Positions 6,472-47,762 of a DNA stretch of 64,000 nt are shown piece by piece. This DNA is from Isoetes taiwanensis (lineage: Eukaryota > Streptophyta > Lycopodiopsida > Isoetales > Isoetaceae), in contig JAJEKV010000085.1 of NCBI GenBank assembly GCA_021234155.1, positions 2,180,896 to 2,244,895 of the forward strand, in the 5' to 3' direction. Below the pieces are notes generated by a model. It did not search any database. It had not been told where the DNA came from and saw only the letters and a program-made list of their open reading frames with translations. The stretch's first letter is position 1. The number at the start of each line of letters is the position of its first letter. A program made the position numbers and the translations under genes.

Positions 6472-6546
6472 GCGAAAGTTTATCACCGGGATGAAAAACC
6501 CCGCCCCTTCGGGTTTTCGAAGAAAACCCTAATGATAAACCTTCGC
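6472..6546 (+). other. Hairpin A, locus 1
   Basis: Arms GCGAAAGTTTATCA (6472-6485) and TGATAAACCTTCGC (6533-6546) pair over 14 bases with one mismatch. Between them lies the shared core: GGGATGAAAAACCCCGCC, then TTCGGGTTTTCG, then AAGAAAACCCTAA. Inside the core GGGTTTTC can pair either with the upstream AAAACCC or with the downstream GAAAACCC, so two alternative inner stems are possible. Confidence 0.75.
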
Positions 6547-6849
6547 CCGACGGCTCCAAAGGAAAAGCCCGGGCCATCAAAGTGGAGATCATTGATGAAA
6601 AAGTCGAGGAAGCACAAGATGGAGGTCGCAAATCAGACGATGCATCTCAAACTCCATGGAAGAGCCGAACCAAAGAAAGAAATAGCCATGATCACTGAAA
6701 ATTTAGGAGAAAAGAAAACAAACAGAATGCATTAGACGTTAGAAAAGTAACGCAACAAAGTTGCCATAGGATGAGATGACCCGAAAAGAAACAACACAAA
6801 AAGAAGCAATTAACTCAAAAAATAGAAGCCATCATGCCGGCTCGGCGAA

Positions 6850-7050
6850 GCCTCCCAAGGGGGGCTGGTCCATGACAAATCACAATCCTCCAATAAGAGA
6901 AGGGGCTGGTCACACAAGCCACGCGACATAAGAGCATATAAAAAATATAACCTCTCAAATACAGAGGGGCTGATCACGCGACATAACATCATATCTTAAA
7001 ACAGCATAACCTCTCAAATATAGAGGGGCTGGTCACGCGAGCCACGCGAA
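6850..7050 (+). repeat. Hairpin-bearing mini-repeats
   Basis: Four spaced copies of GGGGCTGGTCA/GGGGCTGATCA, most followed by CGCGA or GCCACGCGA. Each is preceded by a short complementary run such as CCTCTCAAATACAGAGG. Related units occur on the minus strand at 39.55-39.64 kb. Confidence 0.65.
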
Positions 7051-7111
7051 ATGGAATCACAAATCAAAATGAAAAACATGAATGCAAACAACTTAGGGTG
7101 GGGAGAGGGAA

Positions 7112-7230
7112 CTAAGACCCAAGAAAAACTGCTATGAGAAGACGCCGATAATGGAGAAAGAGCCCAAAGACGTATATATAGCCTTGTCTCTCCCAAAATG
7201 GCGATCCGACGGTGTCGAATCGCATGCATT
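7112..7230 (+). repeat. Direct repeat R, locus 1, first copy
   Basis: About 119 bp running from CTAAGACCCAAG to CGCATGCATT. It holds GAGAAGACGCCGATAA, a TATATATA box near 7173-7180 and the left arm plus loop of hairpin B. It matches 8483-8602 with about four differences. A purine-rich run lies directly upstream, as a polypurine tract would. Confidence 0.7.
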
Positions 7231-7243
7231 TTGGCGAGAGACT
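7184..7243 (+). other. Hairpin B, locus 1
   Basis: GTCTCTCCCAAAAT pairs with ATTTTGGCGAGAGAC, and inside this CGATCCGAC pairs with GTCGAATCG. The right arm is formed by motif T, so the hairpin spans the R/T junction. Confidence 0.7.
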
Positions 7244-7623
7244 CGTCTGGAGGGGGGAAACCGACCAATCAAAAGAGAACTTCTATAAGATGATGATTGC
7301 CACTATAAAGTTGACATGTGTTGAATGAGCATCAAGAAAAAATCAATACCATGTCTAACAAATCAAAACTCCCAAATGTAATTGCCAAGATATGAAGATT
7401 GCTAAATGTATCAAAGTGGTTACGAAGGAAACCTGGGGGGAACTAGAAATTACTAAACCCTAGGAACAATTTGGAAATAGAAAGAAATCAAGGTAAACAA
7501 ATCTAAATGGCAACTAAACAAAAAAACACGCGGGACCAATAGTGGCAAATAGATAAAAGGAATAAGAAGTCATTTGTAAGGAAGTCGGTTGAATAAGAAA
7601 TCACTTTTAAAAGGTATGGTTGA

Positions 7624-7690
7624 TTGGGAGACTCGAACCTTCACCATCAACATCCGAGTCAAAGCCTGTAACCACTAGGCTAAACCAAAT
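7624..7690 (-). other. tRNA-like segment (degenerate tRNA or SINE head)
   Basis: Minus strand reads TAGCCTAGTGGTTA (A-box/D-arm form), and about 30 bases later GGTTCGAGTCTCC (B-box/T-arm form). An imperfect acceptor stem may be present. It lies inside the second body of the bipartite element. Confidence 0.5.
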
Positions 7691-8022
7691 ATAACTTTTA
7701 AAACACAAATCGAGATTTCATAAAACCGTCATATGCTGTGAATAGGTAACCGAACAAAAGGCGATAGAGAAAAGAGAGAACTCCGGAATGCTAAAAACGA
7801 AGAAGAAAAGAACGGGTAGAACAAATCCGATCACAAAATCAAACCAGAGGGAAGAAGAGCTATGCTTGATGATCAGAATTAGACTAGTAAGAGCGATTCA
7901 CAAAAGGAAGCAACCGATTTTTCCAAATAGACAGGTATGGGAGCAAAAGGGAAAAAATATTAAATAGCCAGAGATCGGTCCAAGGAAATCGCCGGTTAAT
8001 CATAGAATACTGAAAGCGCTCA

Positions 8023-8460
8023 ATCACATGAGAATTTGAGGCAGTACCTTCCAAGATCCCTGCATGCAAGCCAAAATTCGAGAGCCAAAGCAAGCAAGAA
8101 TCATTCATAAAACTGATAGATCCACAAATGTGTGCATGTAAAAGAAGCAAAGGAACGAAAACATGAATGAATCATGTGAGAATTTGATGCAATACCTTCA
8201 AGATCCATGCATGCAAGCAAAAATTTCATAGCCCAAGCGAGAATCATTCATAAAACGTATAGATCCACAAATTCGTGCATGCAAGAGACACAAAGGAACG
8301 AAAACATGAACGAATCACATGAGAATTTGATGCAGGATCTTCAAGATCCATGCATGCAAGTAAAAATTCCACAGCCAAAGTGCGCAAGAATGATTCCTAA
8401 AACTTACAGATCCACAATTTGGTGCATGCAAGAGAAGCAAAAGAATGAAAACATGAACTA
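8023..8460 (+). repeat. Three tandem units of about 145 bp
   Basis: Units start near 8023, 8171 and 8314. Each contains GAGAATTTGA, AAGATCC-TGCATGCAAG, AGAATCATTCATAAAAC (varied), AGATCCACAAATT and AACGAAAACATGAA in the same order. Confidence 0.85.
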
Positions 8461-8482
8461 ATAATCAATGCTTGGCCGACGA

Positions 8483-8602
8483 CTAAGACCCAAGAAAAAC
8501 TGCTGTGAGAAGACGCCGATAATCGAGAAAGAGCCCAAAGACGTATATATAGCCTTGTCTCTCCCCAAAATGGCGATCCGACGGCGTCGAATCGCATGCA
8601 TT
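8483..8602 (+). repeat. Direct repeat R, locus 1, second copy
   Basis: About 120 bp nearly identical to 7112-7230, with the same TATATATA box and hairpin-B left arm. Homology stops at GCATGCATT, where the first copy continues into motif T. That boundary is shared with the second R copy of the 54-kb locus. Confidence 0.7.
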
Positions 8603-8690
8603 GTTCTATTCTTTCATTATTCATTAAGCTAGCTAATTACCACTACTTCTTGCTAGCTCTCAGCTCTAATCATGGTTCTTGCTCTAATCA

Positions 8691-8845
8691 GGAGATTCCC
8701 TCCTGTTAGCACATGCTCGCTTGATGGTGAGCAAGAATCCGACGTGGAAGGAATAGACATTTCATCCTGTCTCCCTCGCGACTGACATAGCTGCGGAAGT
8801 GCATAAACACAAGCACGTAGTAATATAACAAATGCTTAGCCACTT
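8691..8845. repeat. Flank block shared by LINE copies B and C (copy 2)
   Basis: Homologous to 1028-1224 and in the same position relative to a GGAA tract and a minus-strand LINE 3' end. It lacks about 32 bases present in copy 1. Confidence 0.7.
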
Positions 8846-8870
8846 CGAAGGAAGGAAGGAAGGAAGGAAG
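8846..8870. repeat. (GGAA)n microsatellite at LINE copy C 3' end
   Basis: Run of GGAA units at the 3' boundary of the minus-strand LINE. Confidence 0.8.
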
Positions 8871-10460
8871 TTTATTTTAACGTCCACGGAGGCCAGAGGC
8901 CTATGAGAGCGGCAAGCGCGAGCAAAAAGCCAAAACCCCAACACCAAAACAAACAATGTAATCAGATAGAACCCTACTACACGGGATGAAAAAACCCCCA
9001 CTTGGGAGGAAAAACCCTAACGATGGGCTCTCAAATACCATGCCCCGGAAAAGAGCAAGTCGGCGGCGAAATCTGCCCGGGATGTAAGCTCCCGGTCCGG
9101 CTACCATAGGTGATCTTGATAATCGATGTAGCGGTGTGTCGAGCATCTAAGATCGAGTGTGCTTTGCTTTCGGACATGGGCATATCTTTGGGCGCATTTG
9201 GAGGGCATGGTGCTCATCCTCTATCACGTGCATCTCACAACAACGACATATCCTCTCCTCCCACGGAGATCCTGTGCCGCCATTCACCCCCAGCGACACA
9301 TCTCAGTTAGGGTAATGGGAACCCGTCCTTATGGCGGCAATAGCTCTCCGTTTCTTCACAGAGATGTGTGCTTTCAAGTACCGATGGGGTCCATGCTCAA
9401 GGCTGGGATTAATCTGAGCGTGATAGTGCTCTGTCTTGGGCTTTGCAAGAGTAGAGGCATCCCACAGAGTGGCAGCATAGCCCGCATCCAATTGCCCATT
9501 CTGCGCATCAGAATCTGCCAGTGCCACCATCTGTTGGTAATCCATAGACCACCTCCTAAACCATCCCTTACAGTGCTCGTGCCATACCCTCTTCAGCCGC
9601 TGGGGGCCCTGCGTTAACAACACGGCCTGTGGGGGCAAGCGATGCTCATCCATCCCATCCACCTTATGGAAGCAAGTAAGATGCCTTCGCATAGCAGAAT
9701 GCTGTAAAGGCCAGAACCCCGTCTCATACAACAAAATCGATGCGATGCGGTGTCCTTCACTCCCGGGCTATATGTCAAGAAAGCTTTACGCACCCTTTCC
9801 AACCTATCCCACGTATTTTGCTAACTATTTGGGCCCCAAACCTCCACCCCATATAGCGACACCGGCTCAACAAAGCTCTAAAGGGTGTGCTCTCCTCGCC
9901 CGATCCACGAGAGATCTATCCGGCAACACGCGTTTTGCACTGCATATAAAGCCTTCCAGCCTGCACTGGCTCTTCTCTCCACACACTCATCCCACAGCAT
10001 GTTAGTAGTGAAATCAATTCCCAGATACTTGAAGCTCCGCACCATCTCCACTTCCTGTCCCCTGTAATAGAACTCCGGGATAGGGTGTTGCGAGGACAGG
10101 ATCGCGAGAAGCTTAGTTTTGTGCAAGTTCACTGTCATTCCCGTTGCCCCACAGAACCCACTGAGGGCATCCAAATGCTGCTGCATACTGCTGGCCGTGT
10201 GAGCTAGCAAAGCTACATCATCCGCATATAGTAACTGGCTCACAGAGGTCGCATCAGATAATTGCACCCCGGCTCCCCCATGGTGCTGCATCCACGTCTC
10301 CAAGCTATCAATATACAACCCAAAAAGCGTTGGAGACAACGGGCAGCCCTGCTTAACTCCCATAGTGCTAGCTACCCGCCGATCCTCATAAGGCAGTGCA
10401 GCATAAATCCCATCATAAAGCTGGTGCACCACATTCTGCAACTCCGGTGCGATCACCATA
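8871..10460 (-). mobile_element. Non-LTR retrotransposon copy C with readable RT core
   Basis: 5'-truncated member of the same family as copy B. The RT part is the best preserved in the window: VKQGCPLSP (about 10,338-10,361), LLYADDVALLA with the catalytic YADD box (10,217-10,228), and FKYLGIDF (about 10,010-10,033). A frame change near 9.8 kb leads to the C-terminal part (9303-9734, with MGPQRLKRVW-like and SIA/IAAIRTGSH motifs). Its 3'UTR is strongly diverged from copy B, so it belongs to another subfamily. It ends in a (TTCC)n tail. Confidence 0.75.
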
Positions 10461-10729
10461 AACCAGATAACATCAGAATCAACTACAACATATATCAATA
10501 TCCTACCCAGCTCAGTCTCATGGGGATCGACTGATGTCTTGATCCTCCAGAGATCATTGCAGATAGAATTCATGGCAAATGGATTTGGCTGGCAAAGGAA
10601 CATGGTCATTGGGTAGTCCACACCATTTTCTCCTCTTGTGCACACTTTGCAGATATAAAAATATTTGCTATGTAGTCCATGCATTTGGGATTGTAAGTTG
10701 TAGGTATTCATGTCTACTACCAAATGCAT
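9878..10729 (-). pseudogene. Open frame fusing upstream DNA to LINE reverse transcriptase
   Basis: A 283-codon open frame. Its C-terminal two thirds (from about 10,450 leftwards) is the RT core of LINE copy C, with QGCPLSP, YADD and FKYLGID. Its first 90 or so residues (10,450-10,729) do not resemble any LINE segment in the other copies and I do not recognise them. The join probably reflects the 5' truncation point of the LINE falling in frame with flanking DNA. Whether it is expressed is unknown. It lacks an endonuclease domain, so it cannot retrotranspose alone. Confidence 0.5.
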
Positions 10730-12042
10730 TTTGAAGGTTGAGCTTCCATAGCTTTAGGAATTCTGAATATATGTGGAGCAAATGTGTTAACATATTTTCC
10801 CAAATATGAGATTTGCTTACCGTAGTTGGTTGGGTGTTTTTATGGGTGGTTTTTTAATTCACATACTCAAAAAAGCATGTGGGCGACACATGTGCTGCAC
10901 AGGTGCTGACTGCCCTTCATTGCCCTTCAAACTGCCCTTCATTGCCCTTCCATAGCCCTTCATTGCCCTTCAAAAAATCATGAGTGTTTTCTATTATATA
11001 AAGGATATAATGACCATATTAGTGATGCAAATCATGATGACATAAATTATTTGGTGAAGGTGCTTATATGTGCTGTGATGGTCAAAAAACTGGGTAGGTC
11101 AATTAAAAAGTTACCCTTATTTAGTTTGTGCTTTTGTTTTATGTTGATCTATACAACAGGAAAAATGCATGATGTTTGAAAGTTCTGATCCCAAGCTTTT
11201 GGAACAATATCTAGATGGTAGTTTTTTTTTCAAAAATATGGGGTGCACATGACTTGGCCTCAGTTAAAACTGGTCATCATCATGCACATATAAACCCCAC
11301 TTTGGCACCTGGAGCACAAGCTTATTTGCTTGCACAAAGAAGCTTGTAGCTATTGCATCAATACATTCAGGATCACACAAGCTATAAATTTGAAACATGT
11401 AGATGGGAGCGGCTGCAATCGCCATGCAAGGCAAAATTATGTACATCTAGCCAGCTATCAGTGACTGCAGATGAAAATTACACACTTCTAAGATATCCTG
11501 CTTTTGTGATGATTAATAATTGTTCTTTTGACATTAGCATTACATTCTATGCTTCCACAACTTCTCAGAGCATGATTTGTGTATAACTTGGCATTATACA
11601 TTCTTGAGGTATTAAATACGCCTCTTTAATTGATGAGCCAACATTGTACAAATTGATTTATCATTGATTGCCTAGTATCATCTTAATGCAAAGTTTTTTT
11701 GGAAACCTTTCGGGGCACGGGTTTTTTCATCCTAATAGTAATGGTTGTACTAGGCCATCGTATGGATCGCATGGCCTATTGGCATTCTTGGATGTTAAAG
11801 AATTTATTTTTATTCCTTATTTGGGTAAATCATTTCTTATTCGGGACTTTTGATTGCAACCTCAACATATATCAGTGTTCTTCATTGATTTGGATTTAAT
11901 TCAATTAAATGTAACGTATAAACCCAAGTGCAAATTCCCATCAATCTTTAGGCCATTGCGGTCAAGATTGTATACAAAAAGTTGGCCCAAATAATAATTA
12001 TACAGCATGAATGATCCACCACCAATGGGCTCTACATTGTAT
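10730..12042. other. AT-rich intergenic region
   Basis: No gene is supported. A short imperfect tandem repeat of TGCCCTTCAT units lies at about 10,910-10,975. A degenerate hairpin-A core in minus orientation lies at 11,690-11,742. Confidence 0.5.
11690..11742 (-). other. Degenerate hairpin-A core
   Basis: Minus strand reads GGATGAAAAAACCCGTGCCC then GAAAGGTTTCC, matching the shared hairpin-A core. The outer arms are no longer complementary, so it looks like a decayed copy. Confidence 0.45.
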
Positions 12043-12135
12043 GGCAGCAAGTAAACTCAGGAGCTGATTCTAGGGGGTCCCCCGGCCGGCAATAGCCGGG
12101 AGCGTGTCCCGGAATCTGCGACTGAGTTTGCTGCC
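12043..12135. other. Long 93-nt hairpin
   Basis: GGCAGC...GCTGCC, then AAACTCAG...CTGAGTTT, GATTC...GAATC and CCGGC...GCCGG pair in nested order with small bulges. GC content is well above that of the flanks. It could be a small-RNA precursor or a MITE remnant. I do not recognise a known miRNA in the arms. Confidence 0.5.
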
Positions 12136-12888
12136 ACCACAGCATGGTACTGGATCTGGAGTTTGAGATTACCTGCTGATTACCTCTTGAGCAGAATCAG
12201 CCCACTATTTTCCATTCCGGAGGCAGAACGACCGATCCAATTTCCATGTTGTAAAGAAGATGGTCACACGATACAGTGTGGAACATTGCCTTGCGAATAG
12301 AGAAATGTCTATAGAAGTTTAAGTTATTTCTTAGGTGTCCAATGGTGTCCAATGTCATATACACATTGGTGATCAGCCCATAAAATTATGTAATTTCTTT
12401 TGTATTATATCTATTTTTAGAGGTGGCTAAGGTGGCTTTCCATTTATCAGCAAGCCATTGGTTGTTACCAAGTACAAATGTTCAACTTCAATCTTCCAAC
12501 CATTGGTCTTCAATAGCACATAAAAAGGGAAAGTCGACCTAGACAATGATGATATGGTATGAATGATCTCACACCAAAATTACGAATTGAACCAAGTGGG
12601 CCATAGTAGGAATAGAAAAATGACTAGGTGTAAGTTAGTAGAAGGTGAGAATCTTAATGTCTTGAGTGGCGTCCACTATCATAAACACATGCACTGAAAA
12701 GATGAGAAGATAACTTGCATGTCAAAGGATAGGTCTTGACAAAATGTATGCCTATGCCCTTTTTTGAATTACATATATTTTTTGGGGTGGCTAATGTGTC
12801 GTTCCATTTGCCGGCCAGTCGCGCCATCCCATTGGCTCCATATCTCATAAATCAATACAACCTATGCTATAGATATGAAATCAACGAG

Positions 12889-12896
12889 TATATATA
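12889..12896 (+). promoter_or_regulatory. TATA box of the Vps62-like gene
   Basis: TATATATA followed by GAGG, about 77 bases before the putative 5'UTR intron and 161 bases before the start codon. This fits a plant core promoter. Confidence 0.6.
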
Positions 12897-12972
12897 GAGG
12901 CAGCTTTGGTTCATGAAACTCACTCAACATTTCCTTCTTGCTTGATCTGCTACTTATTATTAGCTAACAGAG

Positions 12973-13048
12973 GTAATAATGCAAGTCATTAACGGCTTTC
13001 GTTCGTTCTCCAATCTTTAACATACTTACCTGTATGCATCCTTTGCAG
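12973..13048 (+). other. Probable 5'UTR intron
   Basis: A 76-base segment begins GTAATAATGC after AACAGAG and ends in CCTTTGCAG, eight bases before the start codon. The donor, pyrimidine-rich end and acceptor are good. Transcript evidence would be decisive. Confidence 0.5.
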
Positions 13049-13056
13049 GCACGGAT

Positions 13057-13749
13057 ATGGCAATGGCACCGTTTATCTACAACGAAAAGGTGGTGCTTTA
13101 CTTATGTATGTTATGCATCGTTTTCACAAGCAAGGCTATGGCAGGAGAAGCTCCGTTTATCTACGGAGTGAAAATGCAAGGGATTAAACAGTACGACGAC
13201 ACGGGCTCTCATGCACACGAGGATCTGAGTGTATGGAAACCAACGATGAAAGGGTGCTTATCTCAATATGGAGGCCAACTGCCAGTGGCAGGGTATATGA
13301 ACGAGAAATCAACAATGGCGTTTCGTTTCTTCAAAGAGATCGATACTTTGGCAGTGGGAAGTGGGAACGAGTGGTGGAAAATAGTGTGGACGGATGCAGG
13401 CAGCAGGAGGCCTGACGATTACACAGTGTGGGTGATAAGGGAGGAAAAAATCCCCTCGGGTTATTCATGTCTGTCCCCGGCCTTCTTCAAGAAGGACAGA
13501 GGTAGGCAGCCTCCCACTCCATCCGAGGTCGACGGCCAGGTTCTGGTTAAGAGCGAATACGTCAATTTTGTGTCCGGTGATAAATTAGTCCACATTTGGA
13601 ACGACCGTGGTAGCGGTGCCCGTCAAGATGTCACCATTTTCACTGGTCCTGATGGATTTGGAGCTTTTGCTTCCCCTAACTATAATCCTACCCCCTCTGG
13701 CTTATTTCCTCTCTTGGATCTTTTAAAGGGTGCTCAGGTCCTTTCCTAA
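13057..13749 (+). CDS. Secreted protein with three Vps62/DUF946-like repeats
   Basis: Intact 230-aa frame. Residues 1-29 form a likely secretion signal: hydrophobic core VVLYLCMLCIVF and an AMA cleavage motif before G30. The mature part shows three spaced copies of a [WY]-x-D-x-GS-x4-D-x-[ST]-[VI]-[WF] motif: YDDTGSHAHEDLSVW (about 43-57), WTDAGSRRPDDYTVW and WNDRGSGARQDVTIF. This pattern is typical of plant Vps62-related (DUF946) proteins, whose biochemical role is poorly known, although the chain is shorter than most family members. APFIY occurs twice, at 4-8 and 32-36, with nearly identical codons. A TATA box, a 5'UTR intron and a downstream AATAAA support a real gene. The family call is from motif memory only. 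Confidence 0.65.
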   Translation: MAMAPFIYNEKVVLYLCMLCIVFTSKAMAGEAPFIYGVKMQGIKQYDDTGSHAHEDLSVWKPTMKGCLSQYGGQLPVAGYMNEKSTMAFRFFKEIDTLAVGSGNEWWKIVWTDAGSRRPDDYTVWVIREEKIPSGYSCLSPAFFKKDRGRQPPTPSEVDGQVLVKSEYVNFVSGDKLVHIWNDRGSGARQDVTIFTGPDGFGAFASPNYNPTPSGLFPLLDLLKGAQVLS

Positions 13750-13938
13750 AAGCCTTGCCTTCCAAGTTGGTTAGCATGTCTATTTGGCCCCTAATTATGT
13801 GTAAGTAATGTTTTAAGTATTGTGTAAGCTGCCTTCCAAGTCGGTATGGTATGCATGTCCCTAAGCATGTAAGTATTGTGTAAGACGCCACCCCGAGGTC
13901 GAGTTACTATAGTGTCCTCTTATGTATTAGTGACGATA

Positions 13939-13944
13939 AATAAA
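13939..13944 (+). terminator. Candidate polyadenylation signal
   Basis: AATAAA lies 190 bases after the stop codon of the Vps62-like gene. Confidence 0.45.
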
Positions 13945-15498: not shown

Positions 15499-15499
15499 T

Positions 15500-16790
15500 A
15501 ATAGAATAGAATAGAATATAATATAATTTTATCGCCCACGAGACCAACCGCCTATGGGACCCAAGTACAAAGAGAGAGCAAATGCAGCGATTACTACCGT
15601 GATTAAAAACCCCTCAAGGGTTTTCGGGAAAACCTTAGTAGCAATAAGGATGCCGACATACCGCATAGCTTATATACATAATCACAAGTACAACCGAGGT
15701 TAATGCCTGGACATGGGGCATAATCGAAGTCCGCTGTATCCATTACCTCCCCGGAGGTACGATCCCAACAAGCCTACAGAGGCCCGTGCTCGAGCTCATG
15801 CAAGGCCCGATGGGGCATTAACTAACTCGAGCATACCGAGCCCCGATATGCTCATATCGCGGACAAGCCTGGAGGGCGGACTTTCATCCTCAATGGCTCG
15901 CTGACAAAGACCGGATGCACTCGCCCTCACGCTGCCCCCGAATCCATCTCCATGTCTCAATGCGGAGGTGGTGTGCACTGTCTTAATGGAAGCAATCACC
16001 CCGCTTTTTCATGGGTAGATGGGTGCGCAGTAGTGGTGTGGGCCCCACGCGAGCATGGGATTAACCCGGCATATAATTTGCCACCTTGACATGTGACAGG
16101 GCCTCTCGCGATCCCAAAGCTTGGCCATGAAGCAAGCATCCAAATATCGCTTCAAGGCAACGCTGCTTTCCTTCGGTGTATGCACCGGTCCACATCCGTG
16201 TGCCTCGCACATTCCATAGCGAACCACCGGGCTTGCTTGTCTTTCCAAAGAAGCTTTGAGTCGCCAAGGGCCCATCGCCATCGACAAAGCAAGGTTGGGC
16301 AGTAGGGCTTCATCCATAGCCACCACCTTCCGGAAGTAAATAATGTGACGCTCCAAATACACCTCAGAATGGAAGGAAGCCTGCCTCCCCGGAGCAAGAT
16401 CCGATATGGGACCGTGGATTTCACTCCCAAAGGCTCCGGCCAAGAAGGCCTTCTCAGACTGCTCTAGATCGCTCCAAGTGGTGAGGGATATCACCGCCCC
16501 CCACACCCCATAGAGGAGGACCGGTTCAACCAAGGCCCTCGAACAAGTGTGCCCAGTGACCCCATGCATACTGACTCTACCTTGTGGATCGTTGTTTTGC
16601 ATTGCATACGGGGCTTTCCGACTGCGGTGACCCGTAACTCGATGGATGCATCCCAATGTGTGGTAGTAGAAAACTCAATGCCCAAATACTTATATGACTG
16701 AGCCACCTCCACTACCTGCCCCTGGTAAGTGAATGAGGGAAGGCGTGGGTGCCGGGATGATAGAGAATGTGGCACGTCAAAATGAACATG
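15500..16790 (-). mobile_element. Non-LTR retrotransposon copy D
   Basis: Minus-strand, 5'-truncated copy. From the right it reads YKYLGIEFSTTTHWD (end of the RT, about 16,680), then VEPVLLYGVWG (about 16,500-16,530), IIYFRKVVAMDEALLPN (about 16,300-16,350), MGPWRLKASLER and the C-terminal region, then a 3'UTR with a shortened hairpin core (15,583-15,655). The element ends in an (AGAAT)n run at about 15,500-15,520, not GGAA. Frame changes make it inactive. Confidence 0.75.
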
Positions 16791-24238: not shown

Positions 24239-24270
24239 AAGGAAGGAAGGAAGGAAGGAAGGAAGGAAGG
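24239..24270. repeat. (GGAA)n microsatellite at LINE copy E 3' end
   Basis: Eight GGAA-type units immediately before the LINE 3' terminal sequence TATTTTTATCGTCC. Confidence 0.8.
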
Positions 24271-24400
24271 TATTTTTATCGTCCACGGAGACCAATCGGT
24301 CTATGGGACCCAATACAAAAGCGCAGCAAGCGGATTACTACCCGGATTAAAAAACCCCTGCCCCGAAGGGTTTTCGAGAGAAAAACCGTGGGGGGGTTTA
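24271..24400 (-). mobile_element. Non-LTR retrotransposon copy E, 3' end only
   Basis: About 130 bases nearly identical to the 3' end of copy B: GTCCACGGAGACCAATCGG, TATGGGACCCAATACAAAAG and most of the hairpin core. It is cut after AAAAACCGTGG, so the right hairpin arm is missing. It is either a severely 5'-truncated insertion or was interrupted by the L1 element that follows. Confidence 0.75.
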
Positions 24401-36242: not shown

Positions 36243-36250
36243 CAAAATCC

Positions 36251-36943: not shown

Positions 36944-36949
36944 ATGCAT

Positions 36950-37639: not shown

Positions 37640-37652
37640 AGTTCCGCTTGCT

Positions 37653-37756
37653 GGACCTGTTTGCCAGGGAAAAAGCTGTAGCCTATTGCTTCCAACCCAT
37701 AGCATTCTTGCCGCCCCCAGAATCGGACCCGTTTGCCGGGAAGAAAGCTGTTTTTT
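37653..37756. repeat. Direct repeat pair
   Basis: GGACCTGTTTGCCAGGGAAA-AAGCTGT and GGACCCGTTTGCCGGGAAGA-AAGCTGT lie about 74 bases apart. Confidence 0.7.
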
Positions 37757-38479: not shown

Positions 38480-38930
38480 GTTTAGAGGAAATATCCTCTG
38501 GCCGATCCATTACGTAGGAAAACCAACGCATGCCTTGGCAGGTCTTTATGCACGAATTAGTGGGTTCACCACGCCCGTACTCTGCTTAAAGGCATGCTTG
38601 CACCGATTACCCCCAACATAATTGTGGAGATTCCTAGGATGAAAATGATTTAAAGTCAATGTCTCTGTCTTCATCCATGGCCTTCAACCATTGTGCACGT
38701 TGTGCACTTTCTGTGCCTCTTTAAAACTATGCGGTACAACAACAAGATCCTCTGTGGCAAAAACATAGTCATTTAGCCATGATGGAGGTTTTTTAACTCG
38801 TGTCAAATGAGAGACATGAGTGTTTTCTTGCAGGGGAACCTCAAGTGGTTCAGGCAGAAGATCGTTTTCTGGTACATCTAGATCTATGGGGTCAATATCT
38901 CTCTGTGGGGACACAGGGGATAAAGGCAAA
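38480..38930 (-). mobile_element. Ty1/copia polyprotein remnant
   Basis: The minus-strand frame from 38,929 gives an acidic/proline-rich linker then RVKKPPSWLNDYV, the segment just before the reverse transcriptase in copia polyproteins. Downstream a frame-shifted AMDED/DFKSF stretch fits the RT entry. No LTRs or other domains are nearby, so this is a fragment unrelated to the young copia at 42 kb. Confidence 0.55.
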
Positions 38931-39359
38931 TTTAGTAATGTGGGATGACAGGATTGGCTGGGGGCACAATAGTTTTCTTCAAGGTGGATATAATTTAAAT
39001 CATATTTTATATCTTCCCTTGTATAATGATATATGTCATGGAGAGTGTTGTAACATGTTTACTTTCATCGTCTCCAATACCAAGGAAGGATTCGAACTAT
39101 GTTATGTGTTCACATTGGAAACTCAACAATCTCATGCAGAGGAGGGGCTTCTTCTTGCATGGGCTAATCTTTCTTGATGCTTCTTATCCTTTTTCTATCT
39201 CTTCTATCTTAGCCTTTTGTCCGGCATGGACAATGCTTCGGCCTTCACCTCAGATCTAAATGAAAGTCTTTGGTTTCAAGATGTTGTTATTTCATGTGAG
39301 TTGCATCATGAGAATACCAATCAATCCACGTAGCAGATCGAGATTCTCTTGCAAGACAA
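38931..39359. other. Intergenic region
   Basis: No clear gene. It may contain further decayed copia sequence. Confidence 0.3.
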
Positions 39360-39830
39360 GCATGCATGCATTGCATGCGTCGCATGCATTTTTTGGCCGC
39401 TCATTCGGTTGAGAGATCACTATTTCTTCCAGGTTTCTTCATCAGCTTCTCATCGGCGCTTTCTCATCTCTCAACAGTGTCCCTTGTTTTCCTCCGTCCC
39501 TCCCATAATTTTGTTATTTATATAATGTTATATGTTAAATATTATTGCGTGGCACGCATGATCAGCCCCTCACATTTTCGAAGTTTGGTGGCATGGCTCG
39601 CCTGAACAACCCCTCACTTTTTCGAAGTTTTTATTTTACTCTATTGTGTTTTTTATGCTGGTGATGTGCAGGTGCAGGGGTGATGCGCAACTTTGGCGGG
39701 TCTTTTTGAGAACGTTTAGCAGCCTTGAGTTGTTCAAGCTTCTTGCTGAGAGCTTATCGCTAGGGGTTTTCCTCGAAAACTCGAAAGGGCGAGGTTTCTT
39801 AATCCCGGCGATAAGCTCTCGGCAGGTACA
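39360..39830 (-). mobile_element. Non-coding hairpin element, partial minus-strand copy
   Basis: Read on the minus strand: hairpin A (39,825-39,745), two mini-repeats GAGGGGCTGATCATGCG / GAGGGGTTGTTCAGGCG (about 39,640-39,550), GCGCCGATGAGAAG (about 39,450), then a decayed hairpin B with GCCAAAAAATGCATGCGACG (about 39,400-39,375). The order matches the first unit of the element at 6.3-7.2 kb, although the sequence is much diverged. The second unit is absent. Confidence 0.55.
39745..39825 (-). other. Hairpin A, 39.8-kb copy
   Basis: Arms TGCTGAGAGCTTATCGC and GCGATAAGCTCTCGGCA pair throughout, with one G-U-type position in RNA. The core has the same layout, but the inner stem reads CTCG/CGAG where others have CCCG/CGGG, a paired change. 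Confidence 0.75.
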
Positions 39831-40890
39831 ATAGCCAACATCTGTAGAAAACAATTTTATTTTTGGGGTCCAGGTGTTATAACTGGATATTCCCTGTGTT
39901 TTTTCATTGTTTTGGGTAGCTTGCGATGTGCAGCTACCCACTCTTTATCATTGTAGACACACTGCTGAGATGAATGAAAATCCTATCTATTTATGTGATG
40001 ACGTTGTTTCATGCAAGTCGCATCACGAGAATGTGTACTTCAAGCAAGGCTTGGGAGCAAGTTTTAAAGTATCTCAAACGAAGTTTGGGCATTACTGCAC
40101 ACTTCCAATTGGGTTTATACTTCAAGCAGGGGTTAAAGGTGAACATTCACTCCAAGTTGGGCTTTAAGGTATATCCCACATGTTGAATGCACACCTATAG
40201 GTTAGGCATCAGGCAAGGCTTGGGAACAAAGGTGCATTTATGCATGATTTGAAACATGGATAGAACCTTAGCAATCATGATTGTTTAGCTAAATGTAGCA
40301 TAGAAGGATTTCATTCCCCTAAGAGGATGTAAGAATTGCTATATATAGTTGAAAGATCAAACTGCCTCGGGTGCTTGCGTTATAAAACAACCTCTACGGG
40401 AATAATGCCACTACTAATTGTCCACTAATATTGAGAACAATGGGGTGCAGAGGTATGCCAAGGGTTACAATATTTATTAATTAAGTTATGATAACATGAT
40501 TCTATTTGATTACAACTACAGAGTAGTTTTATAAAATTAAATGATTGTTTTTTTAGGATCATGTGGGTAAGAACCCAAAGCGATTAGCAATTGGGATACT
40601 GCAAAGTGATCGTTGTTAATCCAATATAAGCTATCTTAAGCTGGGCTTGAAATTAACAACTTCGACGGATAAAAAATAAAGGTCTATGGCTTTATGCTAA
40701 GAGTAGCAAATTATCTTTTACAAGGTAAGTATAGATTCTAAGGATCAAGAGATGGCATTGTCTCCGGGAGAGCACTATGGCCAGAATTAAATCTCAAACA
40801 AAGGTAATGAATATGCCAAATGTCAATTGTAATTACATTGCTTGAAATACGTAAGTGCGTTTATTTCAGTACTATCCTAGAAATCTGACT
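39831..40890. other. Intergenic region
   Basis: No gene is supported. Scattered AAGCAAGGCTTGGGA-type motifs resemble the minisatellite that follows. Confidence 0.35.
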
Positions 40891-40894
40891 ATCT

Positions 40895-41300
40895 AGGAGT
40901 GGAGTGAAACTCTAAGCATGGCTCAAAAACTGAGTCAAAACTCTAAGCAGGGCTTGGGGAGTGGAGTCAAACTTTAAGCAGGGCTTAGAGAGTGAGTCAA
41001 ACTCTAAGAAGGGCTTAGAGAATGAATCAAAAACTCTAAGCAGGCTTAGGGAGTGGAGTCAAACTCTAAGAAGGTCTAAGAAAGCGAGTCAAAACTATGA
41101 ACATGGCTTAGAAAGTGGAGTCAAACTCTAAGCAGGGCTTAGAGAGTGAGTCAAACTTAGAGAGTGAGTCAGAAGTCTAAGCAAAAGTTAGGGGGTGGTA
41201 AAACCTCTAAGTAGGGCTTAGGAAGTGGAGTTAACACTCCTATAAGTAGGGCTTGGGGGTGGTCCAAACTCTAAGCAAGACCAAAACTCTTATAAGCATA
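40895..41300. repeat. Minisatellite of about 32-40-bp units
   Basis: Around ten degenerate units built on CTCTAAGCAGGGCTTAG followed by AGAGTG(G)AGTCAAA. Unit length varies, and units decay toward the right end. Confidence 0.8.
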
Positions 41301-42141
41301 CCATCCAAGCTGAATATTAGATAAGTTATATGTTAAGTTGTAAATTGGATGCAAGCTTTAAGATTCACTTCCAAAAGAAAAGGATTGCTTGATTAGATAA
41401 GTTTTTGAAAGGGGGAGAAAAGGTTTTCCTAACCTTAGGAAAGAATAAGCAAAATGGAAGGCAATAGCAATATCAAACTTACCACAGGGTGGTCTAGGAT
41501 ATGTTGATAAGAATAGATTGCTATTAGAATTACCACAAGCTTCCTAAGAAAAATGCATAGCGAATTAGAATGTGAATCTGGAACTTAAAACATTGGTAGT
41601 TAAAGGGTTCATATAATAAGATGTATGTTGTTAGACTTAGGAAGGAAATTTTCCTCGAAGAATGGCATTGTCATGGCAGGGCCAGGCATACAATGGCATA
41701 GTCTAACAAGGCACAAAGTCTGAACCACCCCTCTTTATTATCAAAGTAGTGTATATTATATGTATGGCATACCTGCTATTTTTGAACCCCTTTTAAACAT
41801 TACACTAGAAACTGTATTGTGTGTGTTGCCCACAAAATGTGATCCTTAAGGGATATATTATTGGTATTCTGTGGAATAAAACCAAAAGGGGCTAATCCTG
41901 AAATTGGCTAAGAATTCTTGATAATAATTGGAGCAAGAGATTCAACTCTAGGAGTTGTGATAGAGAATTCCATGGGAATTCATGGTAGTATACACAAATA
42001 AATTAGCCATAATTGGTGTACTGTATATTTATGGGGCAAGGTCTCCAGAAATGCAAGAGTTAACCTGGGGTTGATCTTGCAATAGCATCTCCGATGAAAG
42101 ACCATAGTGTGAATTTACATGGCGGTAGGATTGTGCTTGGG
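41301..42141. other. Intergenic region
   Basis: No gene is supported. Confidence 0.4.
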
Positions 42142-42313
42142 TCTATTCTAGTAAGGGACTCGCAAGGAACACAAAAACCGGCCAATAGGCTTGTCATTCA
42201 TCACAGCAGCATTATATAATGTTTGAAGAATATAGATGGGGAGCTGACCATAACAATGTCGAGCTACCCCATAAGGAAAACAATGTGCATAGGCAGCATA
42301 GAAGGGTAGTGGC

Positions 42314-42864
42314 TGTTAGCAGTTGTCAGAAATTATCATATATGTAATAGGGGTTTCTACAGGGAAGATTACATGAAGATCAAACAACTTACAAGCCTAC
42401 AGGAGCCAAGGTATTTTGAAGACAAAGATTCAACCTAAGGTATGTCATTGTGTGAAGATTATTTCTTAATGCATGTTAATTCCAATGGTTCGATTGAGCC
42501 AATTTTCTACCTCACGAATGTGGGATAAACATGCAAACTTTTGGAGGGAACTAGGCCGACCGATCCGGCACCGAATTCCATTTCTAGATGCTTGCCGTTC
42601 GGATCTTGACTTCATAAGAAGAATGAAAAAAGGAAATGAGTAAGGAGGTCGAAGGTTCTTCAATTGTGCCGCAGATTTAATGGAGTATTTAGTCTTGTAA
42701 AGTGCAAGTGAAGTTCGTTGGTTTCATTGTTATCTAAGACTATTGAACCATTGAAAGATAAGGTTATTTAAATGTTCATTTGAATGCTCACGTTTGGGGG
42801 GGTATTGTCAATTGACCATAAGGTTTCATTTGTGATCTAACATCTAAGTTTTGAAATACTCACA
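42314..42864 (+). repeat. 5' LTR of copia element
   Basis: 551 bp from TGTTAGCAG to ACTCACA. It differs from the 3' LTR by three SNPs and one indel block (an extra ATGTCATTGTGTGAAG-type stretch, where the 3' LTR has a short repeated TTCAACCTAAG). The flank GTGGC is duplicated after the 3' LTR. Confidence 0.95.
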
Positions 42865-42866
42865 TT

Positions 42867-42880
42867 TGGTATCAGAGCAG
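42867..42880 (+). other. Primer binding site
   Basis: TGGTATCAGAGC lies two bases after the 5' LTR and is complementary to the initiator methionine tRNA 3' end, the usual primer for plant copia elements. Confidence 0.9.
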
Positions 42881-42884
42881 GAAC

Positions 42885-45800
42885 ATGGCCAGTAGATTTG
42901 GGGCAAATCTGCTTAGCACAGTAGATGTTTATACAGGAGGACCTGGTTTCCAAGTTTGGAAGGATGCAATTAAACACATCCTAGAAGTGGAAGAATTATG
43001 GGATCTGGTTGATCCAAATGGAGGAACATTTGCACAAACTGGTGCAGAAAGTAGCACACCTGCAAGGTCTGCTACTGGAGGTGGTAATGCAACACAATCT
43101 TATGCTGTGGCTGCAGGTTCTGGGAGCTCAGGGAGCACATCATCTGGGGCAACGTCTCATACAGTGAGCAGTGGTGCAGGTGCTGGCAGAACCATCTATG
43201 CTAGGACAAAGGAGGCTCAAGGGATCATCACCTGCAAGGTTAGTCCCACCATTAGATTGAAGTTAAGAAATATGAGTCCTAAGGAAATGTGGAAGTTTCT
43301 TCTCAAACATTATGAAGAGAAGAGTTCTTCTCAAATAGACCTCTTAGAAAATGAATTGAGGAGTCTCAAACTGAAAGAAGAAGTTTCAAAGTTTTTCAAT
43401 ACCTTTGATAATATAGTTGCAGACCTCAGTGGAGCAGGAGTAAGTCTAACTGAAAGGTATCAAGTGCTTGCAATTGCTAGGTCTATTGGAGATAATGAAC
43501 AGCTGGCTATGTTTATTAGAAACATGGCCAAAACCAGAGAGGAGGCAGAAAACATTATAAGAACAGAGATTGAGCAAAAGAAAATGTTAAAGGGAGAAGA
43601 TGCTGAAGCATCTGAAATTTTGTTTGCTGGGAAGAAAAGAGGAGAAAAGGGAGTTTGCTTTCACTGTCATGAGCCAGGTCACTACAAAAATAATTGCCCC
43701 AAATTGAATAAAGAATTCAATTGCTATACTTGTGGAGGCAAGGGGCACATAGCTGCAAAGTGTCCTACACCAAAGGATTATAACAAAAATAAAGGAACTG
43801 GTAGTTCAAACAAAGGAAGATCAAATTTTAAGGGTCGAGGTGGGAAGAAACCTGCTGGCACATATGTAGCCAAAGAATCTGAAAAGGAGGAATCAGAGGA
43901 TGAAGATGAGGTAAAATTTGCTTTTGCAATCCTTGACAAAAGAGAAACTAATCACAAGTCTGATGTACTTGTAGTTGATAGTGGAGCTGAAAGATCAGTA
44001 GTTCAATCTACTGATCTTCTCAAGAACTTTGGAGGCACACACTCAAGGAATATCCAAGTTGGAAATGGGGAACTCCAACATATTGAAGGAAAAGGACTGC
44101 TACAGCTAACAGACCTGCAGGGGCAAATAGTGGATATTGAAAATGTCCTGTGTGTTCCAACCATTATCAAAAATCTTATTTCTGTCAGTCAATTAGTAGA
44201 CCTTGGCTATAGAATCACTTTTGATTCAAAAGGATGTAACATCTTTCTTGGAAATGAATTAAAGTTTTTTGCAAAACGTGTTGGAAACTTGTTCCAAATG
44301 AATAATATGCAATGTGATATTATTAATGATGTGCATGACTCTGAAACTGAAATGTGGCACAGCAGACTAGCACACACTCATTGCAGCAATATTAACTCCA
44401 TGGCTAAAAAAGGATGGCTTGAATGCAAAGAAACCAATCCAGACAAGTTTGTTTGTGAAGGATGCATGCTAGGGAAGCTGAATAGACTTCCTTTTCACAG
44501 GAGGAAAAAGAGGGCAAATGAACCATTAGAATTAATACACACGGATCTATGTGGACCTATGAACATCAGAGGGAGAACAAACAAAAGGTATTTTATATCC
44601 TTCATAGATGACTTCAGCAGATATTGCAAAGTTTACTGTTTGGAAAAAAAGTCTCAGGCTCTTATTGCTTTTAAACAATATGTCAGTGAAGTTGAAAGAG
44701 AATCAGGGAAAAAGGTAAAATGTGTAAGATCTGACAGAGGAGGGGAATACCTCTCAACTAAATTCAAATTGTATTGCATTGCAAATGGAATTAAAAGACA
44801 GATGACATGTAGGTACAGCCCACAACAGAATGGAGTTGCTGAACGAAAAAATAGAACAGTGATGGATGCTGTGAGGTCCATGATCAAACACTCTGGCTTG
44901 CCTAACTATCTCTGGGAAGAAGCCCTCAAAGCAGCTATCATGATTCAAAATAAACTTCCTACATCTAGCCTAAAGGGAAATACTCCAGAGATTCTATGGT
45001 CAAATGTTAAAGATAAACCAGATTTCAGTATGCTCAAAGCCTATGGTTGTTTAACCTATGTGCATGTGCCTATAGAGCTAAGGAAGAAGTTAGATGACAA
45101 AGCTCAAATTGGATACTTGGTGGGATATGACAGTGAATCAAAAGGGTACAGAATTTTTATTCCAGAAAATAAGACTGTAATAATAAGCAGAGATGTGTTT
45201 TTTAAGGAGGATGTACTTTATAAGGACAGGAATGTCATCAAAACAAATACATCTAAGGAAAGCATAAATGATACTTCAGGAAAAACATCACAATCAACAA
45301 GCTATGATTCAGATGAGGAGGACAAGAATAATGATTCAAGTCAGAATGAAGATGGAAAACCTCAAAGCAGTTTAGAGCACAGCAGTACAGAAATTATTCC
45401 ACCTAAAAGGAGGAAGACACAAGCAGAAAAACTTCTAGAAGAAGCTGGAATAGATACAAAAGCATATGGAAGGGATGATGTTGGCAGAAGCAAAAGGCTG
45501 GACAGAATTGAAACAGAAGATGTTGAGGAGGAAATTGAGCAAATCATGGCAATTCTTGAAGATGAAAAGATTCCACAAACTTATGAGGAAGTGTTGATTT
45601 CTGCAGATAGAGATAAATGGTTGGATGCAATTGAGAAGGAATTAAATTCCTTCAAAACCACTGAAACATATGAAACAGGAGATCTACCTAATGGTAAAAC
45701 TGCTATAGGCAGTAAATGGATCTTTAAAATTAAAACATGTGCAGATGGCAGCCATAAATATAAGGCCAGGTTGGTGGCAAAGGGGTTCACTCAAAGAAAA

Positions 45801-47120
45801 GGAAGAGATTTTGATGAAACCTATTCTCCAATAGTCAAATTGACAAGTGTAATACTGTTATTAGCTTTGGCAACTGCTTGGAACCTAGAATTACATCATA
45901 TGGATGTAAAAACAGCTTTCTTAAATGCCAAATTAGAAGAAGACATTTATATGAAGCCACCTGCTGGAATTGAAGTTGAGAACAACAAAATATGGAAGTT
46001 AAAACGTGATGTGTATGGTCTAAAACAAGCACCTAGAGAATGGTATCACTGCATAGACAATTTCCTCAGGGAGCAGGGTTTTGAGAAACTTAAGAATGAT
46101 GGGAACTTGTACATTTTTAGGGATGAATCCAAATATTGCATTATAGCTCTCTATGTGGATGATTGCATCATGAGTGCAAATTGTTTAGATGTGCTAAACC
46201 ATTGCAAAAACATGTTGAAGAAAAGGTTTCACATGACTGATCTTGGGGAACTACAGAAATTTTTGGGTATAGAAGTAGTTAGAAACAGGGACAAACATGA
46301 ACTATGTCTGAAACAAAGCCAGCACATAGAGAATATGTTAACAAGGTTCAACCTATCTGAAGCTAATGTTGTGCAGACTCCCATGGTACCAGGGCACAAA
46401 TTGACAGCTGATACAGAGATGACTGAATCAGAGATTAAAGAAATGGAAGATATACCTTACAGGGCCCTCATAGGTTGTCTTTTGTATTTATCAAATAATA
46501 CTCGGCCAGATATAACTTATGCTGTGAACATCTTAAGCAGAAGATGTCATAATCCTAGCAAAACTCATTGGATAGCAGGGAAAAGAATCCTAAGGTATCT
46601 GAAAGGCACTAAAGATTTTGGAATAAAATTTGACAGCTCAAACTTGACATTGGAAGCCTATAGTGATGCTGACTGGGCAGGGGACCTAAGCATGAGAAAA
46701 TCAACCTCAGGGTATGTCATTTTTTTAGCAGGAGGACCTATATCTTGGAGAACAAAGAAACAAAATGCCATAGCAATGTCTTCTGCAGAAGCAGAATACT
46801 CAGCAGCCTCTCTAGCATCCAAAGAAGTGGTTTGGCTCAGAAGACTTCTGGAAGAACTCAGGTGTGTTCAAAATGAACCAACTAAAATTCTGACTGACAG
46901 CCAAAGTTGTATGGCAATTGTAAAAAACCCAGTTGACCATGAAAGGACCAAGCACATAGAATTATCTATACATTTTATCAGGGACCTAGCCAGCAAGAAA
47001 TACATTCAAATGGAATATGTCAACACCTCAGATCAAGTGGCAGACGTCTTTACTAAAGCTCTGACTGAAAACAAGTTTACAAAGTTCAGGGATTGTTTAA
47101 ATGTTTGGACAGCAGCTTAA
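42885..47120 (+). CDS. Ty1/copia Gag-Pol polyprotein, intact
   Basis: Uninterrupted 1411-aa frame. Domains in order: Gag (about 1-250); two CCHC knuckles CFHCHEPGHYKNNC and CYTCGGKGHIAAKC (about 257-295); aspartic protease DSGA (about 365); an HHCC integrase zinc domain (about 487-540); the integrase catalytic core with HTDLCGP (about 551), SDRGGEY (about 616) and NGVAERKNR; reverse transcriptase from WIFKIK (about 945) with YGLKQAPREW (about 1043) and YVDD (about 1089); RNase H with SDADWAGD (about 1258) and SSAEAEY (about 1300). All catalytic signatures are present. Near-identical LTRs and an intact frame point to a recent insertion that may still be competent. It encodes capsid and replication enzymes for cytoplasmic reverse transcription and nuclear integration. 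Confidence 0.97.
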   Translation: MASRFGANLLSTVDVYTGGPGFQVWKDAIKHILEVEELWDLVDPNGGTFAQTGAESSTPARSATGGGNATQSYAVAAGSGSSGSTSSGATSHTVSSGAGAGRTIYARTKEAQGIITCKVSPTIRLKLRNMSPKEMWKFLLKHYEEKSSSQIDLLENELRSLKLKEEVSKFFNTFDNIVADLSGAGVSLTERYQVLAIARSIGDNEQLAMFIRNMAKTREEAENIIRTEIEQKKMLKGEDAEASEILFAGKKRGEKGVCFHCHEPGHYKNNCPKLNKEFNCYTCGGKGHIAAKCPTPKDYNKNKGTGSSNKGRSNFKGRGGKKPAGTYVAKESEKEESEDEDEVKFAFAILDKRETNHKSDVLVVDSGAERSVVQSTDLLKNFGGTHSRNIQVGNGELQHIEGKGLLQLTDLQGQIVDIENVLCVPTIIKNLISVSQLVDLGYRITFDSKGCNIFLGNELKFFAKRVGNLFQMNNMQCDIINDVHDSETEMWHSRLAHTHCSNINSMAKKGWLECKETNPDKFVCEGCMLGKLNRLPFHRRKKRANEPLELIHTDLCGPMNIRGRTNKRYFISFIDDFSRYCKVYCLEKKSQALIAFKQYVSEVERESGKKVKCVRSDRGGEYLSTKFKLYCIANGIKRQMTCRYSPQQNGVAERKNRTVMDAVRSMIKHSGLPNYLWEEALKAAIMIQNKLPTSSLKGNTPEILWSNVKDKPDFSMLKAYGCLTYVHVPIELRKKLDDKAQIGYLVGYDSESKGYRIFIPENKTVIISRDVFFKEDVLYKDRNVIKTNTSKESINDTSGKTSQSTSYDSDEEDKNNDSSQNEDGKPQSSLEHSSTEIIPPKRRKTQAEKLLEEAGIDTKAYGRDDVGRSKRLDRIETEDVEEEIEQIMAILEDEKIPQTYEEVLISADRDKWLDAIEKELNSFKTTETYETGDLPNGKTAIGSKWIFKIKTCADGSHKYKARLVAKGFTQRKGRDFDETYSPIVKLTSVILLLALATAWNLELHHMDVKTAFLNAKLEEDIYMKPPAGIEVENNKIWKLKRDVYGLKQAPREWYHCIDNFLREQGFEKLKNDGNLYIFRDESKYCIIALYVDDCIMSANCLDVLNHCKNMLKKRFHMTDLGELQKFLGIEVVRNRDKHELCLKQSQHIENMLTRFNLSEANVVQTPMVPGHKLTADTEMTESEIKEMEDIPYRALIGCLLYLSNNTRPDITYAVNILSRRCHNPSKTHWIAGKRILRYLKGTKDFGIKFDSSNLTLEAYSDADWAGDLSMRKSTSGYVIFLAGGPISWRTKKQNAIAMSSAEAEYSAASLASKEVVWLRRLLEELRCVQNEPTKILTDSQSCMAIVKNPVDHERTKHIELSIHFIRDLASKKYIQMEYVNTSDQVADVFTKALTENKFTKFRDCLNVWTAA

Positions 47121-47141
47121 ATGTCATATTACATATATGAT

Positions 47142-47151
47142 AAAGGAGGAA
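47142..47151 (+). other. Polypurine tract
   Basis: AAAGGAGGAA directly precedes the 3' LTR and would prime plus-strand DNA synthesis. Confidence 0.8.
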
Positions 47152-47682
47152 TGTTAGCAGTTGTCAGAAATTATCATATATGTAATAGGGGTTTCTACAG
47201 GGAAGATTACATGAAGATCAAACAACTTACAAGCCTACAGGAGCCAAGGTATTTTGAAGACAAAGATTCAACCTAAGGTTCAACCTAAGCATGTTAATTC
47301 CAATGGTTCGATTGAGCCAATTTTCTACCTCACGAATGTGGGATAAACATGCAAACTTTTGGAGGGAACTAGGCCGACCGATCCGGCACCGAATTCCATT
47401 TCTGGATGCTTGCCGTTCGGATCTTGACTTCATAAGAAGAATGAAAAAAGGAAATGAGTAAGGAGGTCGAAGGTTCTTCAATTGTGCCGCAGATTTAATG
47501 GAGTATTTAGTCTTGTAAAGTGCAAGTGAAGTTCGTTGGTTTCATTGTTATCTAAGACTATTGAACTATTGAAAGATAAGGTTATTTAAATGTTCATTTG
47601 AATCCTCACGTTTGGGGGGGTATTGTCAATTGACCATAAGGTTTCATTTGTGATCTAACATCTAAGTTTTGAAATACTCACA
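47152..47682 (+). repeat. 3' LTR of copia element
   Basis: 531 bp, TGTTAGCAG...ACTCACA, followed by target duplication GTGGC (47,683-47,687). Confidence 0.95.
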
Positions 47683-47683
47683 G

Positions 47684-47762
47684 TGGCGACAACTTCTCAT
47701 TGGGATGAAAAACCCCGCCATTTCGGGTTTTCGAGGAAAACCCTAATGAGAAATGGTCGCCA
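47684..47762 (+). other. Hairpin A, locus 2
   Basis: Arms TGGCGACAACTTCTCATT (47,684-47,701) and AATGAGAAATGGTCGCCA (47,745-47,762) pair at 15 of 18 positions. The core GGGATGAAAAACCCCGCC...TTTCGGGTTTTCGAGG...AAAACCCTAA matches locus 1. The copia insertion lies exactly at the foot of the left arm. Confidence 0.75.

Follow-up and report, generated by a model that had tools for sequence, protein, structure and literature searches.

A recurrent hairpin with a clamped U loop, resembling an element for nuclear expression, in retroelements of Isoetes taiwanensis

Why should one hairpin recur in unrelated mobile elements of a single genome? The question is raised by 64,000 nucleotides of the lycophyte Isoetes taiwanensis (contig JAJEKV010000085.1, positions 2,180,896 to 2,244,895; hereafter the window). 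An initial annotation had placed hairpins at 6472-6546, 39745-39825 and 47684-47762, within elements regarded as non-coding, and had seen the same core in the 3' region of a long interspersed nuclear element (LINE) family. All three hairpins are present. The annotation knew of no described motif of this kind; the hairpin does, however, resemble one, the element for nuclear expression (ENE), which one account describes as a hairpin near the RNA 3' end with a U-rich internal loop (PMC8704770). We consider it probable, on the anatomy on which any such identification rests, that retroelement transcripts of Isoetes carry, in their 3' region, an ENE-like stability element in the form of this hairpin.

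Sense strand, fold and conserved parts of the hairpin

The shared core occurs more often than chance allows, with four window matches to an 18-mer (up to three mismatches) against 0.07 expected; the 18-mer is exact in two of the four, and the 39745 copy lies outside them. Folded on the strand on which the core was originally read (the core strand), each window hairpin is more stable than 200 of 200 shuffles, with z-scores of -4.97, -4.61 and -4.78 for the 6472, 39745 and 47684 copies. Across the assembly (1,658,258,908 bases, 1110 contigs) an 18-nt half core, two mismatches allowed, gives 4516 matches against 69 for a reversed-pattern control, a count of half cores and not of complete hairpins. 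From the 100 places listed for these matches 68 loci were fetched, giving with the window 72 core copies, 53 of them in four carrier families (F1-F4) and 19 in the LINE. Every listed place is an exact match to the seed, which thereby selects the 3' half of the core. Alignment A1 holds 51 rows of F1-F4 (L008 and repeated hairpins left out, the 39745 window copy added) and A2 holds 18 LINE rows plus four window copies. The mixed alignment A3 has 54 rows, drawn from 55 non-redundant cores: two window copies were added, L050, L053 and L037 (a short-apical copy) were omitted, and four row ranges were trimmed. Covariance model R1 was trained on A3, and its matches to A3 rows are not independent.

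G.U pairs, tetraloops and coding frames all indicate that the RNA sense is the strand opposite to the core strand, so the strand adopted by the initial annotation was the wrong one. On the reverse complement the arms contain 126 G.U and 23 A.C cells, and the upper stem 55 and 3 (A1, to which counts of rows and cells refer unless A3 is named). The apical loop on this strand is GAAA, GGAA or GCAA in 36 of the 53 F1-F4 copies and CUUCG in 8 of the 19 LINE copies; seven copies have AAAA, and 10 of all 72 do not fit the pattern used. The G.U/A.C count, together with coding frames on the opposite strand, led us to reject the core strand as the RNA. Knowledge of the coding strand also led us to drop a promoter at the sharp end, an idea prompted by TATA-like motifs in the core-strand sequence.

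Read in the sense direction, the hairpin consists of a variable stem, a G-C clamp, 4-6 U, a clamp, an apical hairpin, a clamp, 4-6 U and a final clamp. The outer arms differ between copies and keep their complementarity, as originally claimed: pairing holds in 93.1% of cells (86.7% in shuffles, and no more than 57.5% when the arms are slid), and 80 cells show two-sided changes against 24.7 in shuffles. Counted by pairs, two-sided change is not exceptional: 8 pairs show it, against 6.1 in shuffles, and 41 of 500 shuffles reach that number. A3 behaves alike, with 87.4% of cells pairing and 43 two-sided cells against 16.6 in shuffles, while its pairs with two-sided change (6 versus 5.0) and further pair types (19 versus 18.8) are unremarkable. 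Strand asymmetry and arm covariation in the alignments support the earlier suggestion of selection on a folded RNA.

The U tracts and their clamps are conserved. The 5' tract, which lies outside the search seed, has at least four U in 69 of 72 copies (4 U in 44, 5 U in 24, 8 U in one, 3 U in two and no run in one); it is preceded by GG in 64 and followed by CC in 65. Of the clamp pairs, whose 3' sides the seed selects, 33-79 is standard in 49 of 51 rows, and 43-68 and 44-67 in all 51. Once LINE rows are included (A3), 21 of 54 rows break the outermost clamp pair. Sixteen model matches, 12 of them with at least three mismatches to the seed, keep the second U tract, usually with 4-7 U; it is interrupted in one, 39756-39813, and L037 is the only one of the 16 that is also among the 72 copies. 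The hairpin thus has the internal loop expected of an ENE, with U tracts on both strands and G-C pairs directly on either side.

A pattern written for a variant in which the apical part is replaced matches the genome 171 times and the control not at all. This variant has lost the AAAACCC-loop-GGG portion but retains the clamps, the 5' U tract and the first part of the 3' tract; the two copies read completely hold a 3' tract of 4-5 U. Surroundings were inspected for one of the 171, L037, which is a LINE copy. Because this short-apical variant drops the apical part yet keeps the 5' tract and the clamps, the conserved module, as judged from the sequences, is the clamped U loop. Copies of F1-F3 contain, by eye, a second possible hairpin with GGGTAG/CTACCC arms between the hairpin and the outer repeat.

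Split-repeat, recombinase-encoding and LINE carriers

The supposed non-coding elements carry split direct repeats, a feature of the DIRS order. On the core strand F1-F4 all follow the same order, from A1 through the hairpin, B1A2 and the internal part to B2. The A repeats are present in copies of all four. B2 was recovered in 11 of 30 copies, namely the F2 and F3 elements of the window and nine F1 loci (among these, L043 and L044 hardly differ over 4 kb); it was not found within the sequence fetched per locus in the other 19. The best B2 match reaches the ATT end in nine of the 11 and falls slightly short in L006 and L063; a further A repeat follows B2 in L001 and at the second L063 match. None of the copies examined is a complete F4 element. 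We take the window F3 element to span 42145-54380 and the window F2 element 6274-8602; neither F2 nor the internal part of F3 contains a frame of 150 residues or more. No B2 was found for the window F1 element, which starts at 40032 on the minus strand. No coding relative of F1 or F2 was seen among the loci examined, and the two are placed with the others by the common repeat plan. The reading of the F1-F4 elements as short interspersed nuclear elements mobilised by a LINE was rejected, as their ends, where found, are split-repeat ends, mostly ATT, and not a LINE-like tail. A DUF4283 frame in L014, which starts past the point where the F1 copies cease to align, was assigned to the flank.

Three further observations concern these families. 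A Copia long terminal repeat (LTR) retrotransposon with one long frame (42314-47588) is inserted in the window F3 element between A1 and the hairpin. L063 has two consecutive B-A junctions 358 nt apart, as if the F1 internal part were tandemly repeated. Truncated F2 and F3 copies in L005 and L055 are directly adjoined by sequences that carry a poly(A) tail and resemble each other at the 3' end; by eye, these perhaps represent another retroelement family.

Relatives of F3 and F4 are predicted from their sequence to encode a tyrosine recombinase, in one case together with a reverse transcriptase, as in the DIRS order. A Pfam search of the genome gave at least 58 tyrosine-recombinase matches (148 of 246 candidates scored). 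Nine recombinase loci were chosen irrespective of the hairpin: the best match, L069, and L070-L077 (ranks 2-6, 8, 10 and 13 of the match list; 2 kb each, from inside the recombinase gene onwards). All nine match F3 or F4 copies in the expected orientation. L069 has Phage_integrase (6.8e-10) and RVT_1 (2.6e-16) frames on one strand; its RNase H match is weak (RVT_3, 0.00039, below the Pfam cut-off), so the DIRS-order combination of recombinase and reverse transcriptase with RNase H is seen at this one locus, with the RNase H weak. A methyltransferase domain separates DIRS from Ngaro, and none was found in the four scanned frames of L069.

The hairpin is present on the coding strand of L070, L074 and L075, at 80.7 bits in each, 754, 750 and 727 nt past the recombinase stop codon; it ends 175 (L074) and 174 nt (L075) before the end of the outer repeat. 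These loci are closely related (86-95% identical) and do not represent three independent events. L069 has no hairpin. The similarity of L072 to the element stops at base 340, so that its 3' part cannot be judged, and L077 retains, by eye, an apparent remnant of the 3' arm.

The fifth carrier family is a LINE with a microsatellite tail, in whose 3' region the core recurs as first reported, at four covariance-model matches in the window (Table 1). A reverse-transcriptase frame lies upstream of the 8976 hairpin on the same strand, opposite to the core as originally read, with the tail on the expected side; frame and hairpin are taken to belong to one LINE. No hairpin match accompanies a fifth LINE tail in the window (55123). 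Frames in L012 and L066 are similar by eye and have no Pfam match. The position of the hairpin, read from genomic DNA only, is therefore 3' of the recombinase gene and on its strand at three loci, and 66-109 nt from the tail in the four window LINE copies. Likeness of the LINE hairpin to that of F1 reaches the AAAACCC and GGGCGGGGUUUUUAAUCCC parts, the GGGCGGGGUUUUUAAUCCC part being seed-selected; in our judgement of the sequences, shared origin is likelier than convergence.

Table 1. Hairpins, split direct repeats and the reverse-transcriptase frame in the window (bit scores from covariance model R1)
Feature	Coordinates	Strand	Evidence or remark
Candidate ENE-like hairpin, F3	47684-47762, model core 47695-47750	minus (RNA sense)	77.8 bits (training copy); strand asymmetry
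Candidate ENE-like hairpin, F2	6472-6546, model core 6481-6536	minus	74.1 bits (training copy)
Candidate ENE-like hairpin, F1	39745-39825, model core 39756-39813	plus (RNA sense)	66.2 bits (overlapping stretch in training set)
LINE hairpin	1312-1371	minus	49.4 bits; tail 1227-1246
LINE hairpin, shortened apical part, both U tracts and G-C clamps	8976-9023	minus	29.5 bits; tail 8848-8867
LINE hairpin	15592-15642	minus	43.0 bits (overlapping stretch in training set); tail 15502-15516
LINE hairpin	24336-24394	minus	46.7 bits; tail 24239-24270
Reverse-transcriptase frame (RVT_1)	9878-10753	minus	Pfam RVT_1 1.7e-17
A1, outer split direct repeat, F3	42145-42182	plus (core strand)	
B1-A2 junction, F3	48269-48434, A2 from 48396	plus	
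B2, terminal repeat, F3	54251-54380	plus	ends GATCGATGCTATT
A1, F2	6274-6292	plus	deletion-shortened in window copy
B1-A2 junction, F2	7111-7266, A2 from 7228	plus	
B2, F2	8482-8602	plus	ends GCATGCATT
A1, F1	39997-40032, inner end approximate	minus	A2 begins 39315 on minus strand

A proposed stability element and alternative readings

In the proposed mechanism, the central internal loop of the sense-strand stem-loop, with its two U tracts (mostly 4-6 U) between G-C pairs, would draw in poly(A), most probably the tail of the same transcript, with which it would build a U.A-U triple helix. Such a helix would slow deadenylation and decay, and slower decay would leave more RNA available for reverse transcription. 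Capture of poly(A) in a U.A-U triple helix is attributed to the ENEs of other RNAs (PMC11411715; PMC10078130). In the LINE, the RNA would have to be polyadenylated beyond its tail, or another A-rich strand would be bound.

Several observations weigh against this reading. The LINE is the weakest point of the mechanism because its DNA-encoded tail consists of microsatellite repeats, (TATTC)n or (CCTT)n in the sense direction, and not of poly(A). Six of the nine recombinase loci have no model match at E up to 1. The strand count is weak in the inner stems (0 G.U versus 5 A.C in the lower clamp, 3 versus 2 in the top stem), and G.U cells cluster at few positions, 47 of the 55 in the upper stem falling on pair 45-66, so that they are not independent events. 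Two-sided changes are confined to the long outer helix, the inner stems varying almost exclusively on one side, and the 3' half of the core owes its constancy to the choice of seed. Among Rfam matches none is named ENE, Rfam not having been checked for plant ENE content. The fold with both U tracts open is the minimum in none of the 49 rows folded (two of 51 skipped); its median distance above the minimum is 1.4 kcal/mol and its largest 8.7, and in 34 of the 49 it stays within 3 kcal/mol.

RNAalifold on its own favours a competing AAAA/UUUU inner stem, which speaks for the switch between two inner stems already put forward in the initial annotation. In our formulation of it, AAAA-CCC would pair either with the 5' GGG-UUUU or with the 3' GGGG-UUUU. 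The 3' competitor is the one preferred by RNAalifold, the 5' competitor appears in single folds of many copies, and the paired inner-stem change that had been reported is indeed present in one copy (39756-39813, pair 54-66, 1 of 51 rows), though it is not general among copies. That lone double change preserves the pairs of the ENE fold too, and the short-apical variant, with its 171 genome matches, does without AAAA-CCC, the segment a switch needs, yet keeps the 5' U tract and clamps. We regard a two-state switch as unlikely.

Slightly less likely still is that the hairpin serves reverse transcription or packaging, by placing a primer or binding Gag or reverse transcriptase, and not stability. 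Its site in L074 and L075, between the internal repeats and the 3' terminus, would suit such a role, and its retention in copies that lack coding frames is as expected of a cis signal. The one locus with both reverse-transcriptase and recombinase frames, L069, nevertheless has no hairpin, five further recombinase loci have no match, and the hairpin also occurs in a LINE, whose replication route differs.

The same core close to the tail of a LINE had suggested to the initial annotation that the LINE reverse transcriptase recognises the hairpin and that the non-coding elements hitch-hike on it. The other carriers, however, have termini of their own, split direct repeats (A1, B1A2, B2) that mostly end in ATT; relatives of F3 and F4 encode their own recombinase, and L069 a reverse transcriptase as well; and the hairpin is internal to the element in L074 and L075, at the distances from the end given above. 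We hold recognition of this kind to be very improbable. A self-cleaving ribozyme or a small-RNA precursor, for which the long near-perfect stem and sub-threshold microRNA matches (best 27.6 and 29.8 bits, cut-off 100) might speak, is equally implausible: Rfam has no match in the window at or above the gathering cut-off, ribozymes included, and up to E 10 its matches comprise no ribozyme family, on which ground self-cleaving ribozymes were rejected, and a small-RNA precursor does not predict conserved, clamped U tracts.

An ENE-like stability element is thus the reading we retain, with poly(A) capture, stabilisation of the RNA and spread of one hairpin among unrelated retroelements as its putative consequences. 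It suggests that mobile elements of two unrelated kinds can share a device like a poly(A) clamp. To our knowledge, the priming of reverse transcription in the DIRS order is unexplained. One bolder version, which we advance as a long shot, is that a single ENE whose apical and outer parts can be exchanged moved, as a portable module, between DIRS-order and LINE retroelements of the lycophyte, and that the ENE-poly(A) triplex would also position the 3' end of DIRS-order RNA for reverse transcription.

Were the stability reading true, poly(A) capture would be a strategy common to unrelated retroelements in one genome, and the large set of natural variants would separate the parts of an ENE that are kept (U tracts, clamps) from those that can be swapped (apical hairpin, outer arms). 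DIRS-order elements of a land plant would gain a testable cis element for RNA stability, and it could be asked whether a longer life of their RNA lets copies that lack coding frames prevail over autonomous ones.

Neighbouring features and known systems

A Replitron_HUH frame occupies 58900-59844 of the window and belongs to an abundant family (150 of 2165 genome candidates were scored, and all 150 matched); a link of the hairpin to Replitrons was discarded, there being no model match at this frame. A pentatricopeptide repeat (PPR) protein frame of 879 residues without a stop lies at 61098-63734. At locus L025 a 277-residue frame (291-1121) with a core histone domain (6.4e-40) lies about 900 nt from a hairpin copy.

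ENEs were already known from the RNAs of plant transposable elements, in many of which a 2016 study reportedly found ENE-type elements. Among the literature matches listed, most subscription papers being outside the search, no title or abstract dealt with an ENE in DIRS-order elements or LINEs, and no title with DIRS-order elements in Isoetes; the list does include PMC3537659, which treats a DIRS1-type domain of plant regulators, and PMC2864245, in whose text the words DIRS and Isoetes both occur. DIRS-order recombinase retroelements in a land plant, seen here in the recombinase matches and in the paired frames of L069, are a further observation: DIRS elements were previously called absent from green plants or limited to green algae (PMC3266345; PMC9033089), the green-algal limit being that of a 2022 review (PMC9033089).

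PAT, Toc, Kangaroo and Ngaro elements combine a reverse transcriptase and a tyrosine recombinase with split direct repeats A1, B1, A2 and B2 (PMC4157794). The Isoetes elements share this plan and, at L069, both enzymes, but their host is a land plant, and many copies show no coding frame and bear the hairpin.

The closest likeness to the hairpin itself is the ENE of Evade, a copia element of Arabidopsis: it too lies in the 3' region of the element's RNA and forms a stem-loop in which G-C pairs bound the U-rich internal loops. The adjacent G-C pairs are described there as essential, and deletion of the ENE as reducing RNA stability and new insertions (PMC12501189). Evade is, however, an LTR element with four U-rich tracts (PMC12501189), whereas the Isoetes hairpin has two tracts and an apical GNRA or UUCG loop, and is found in split-repeat elements and a lycophyte LINE.

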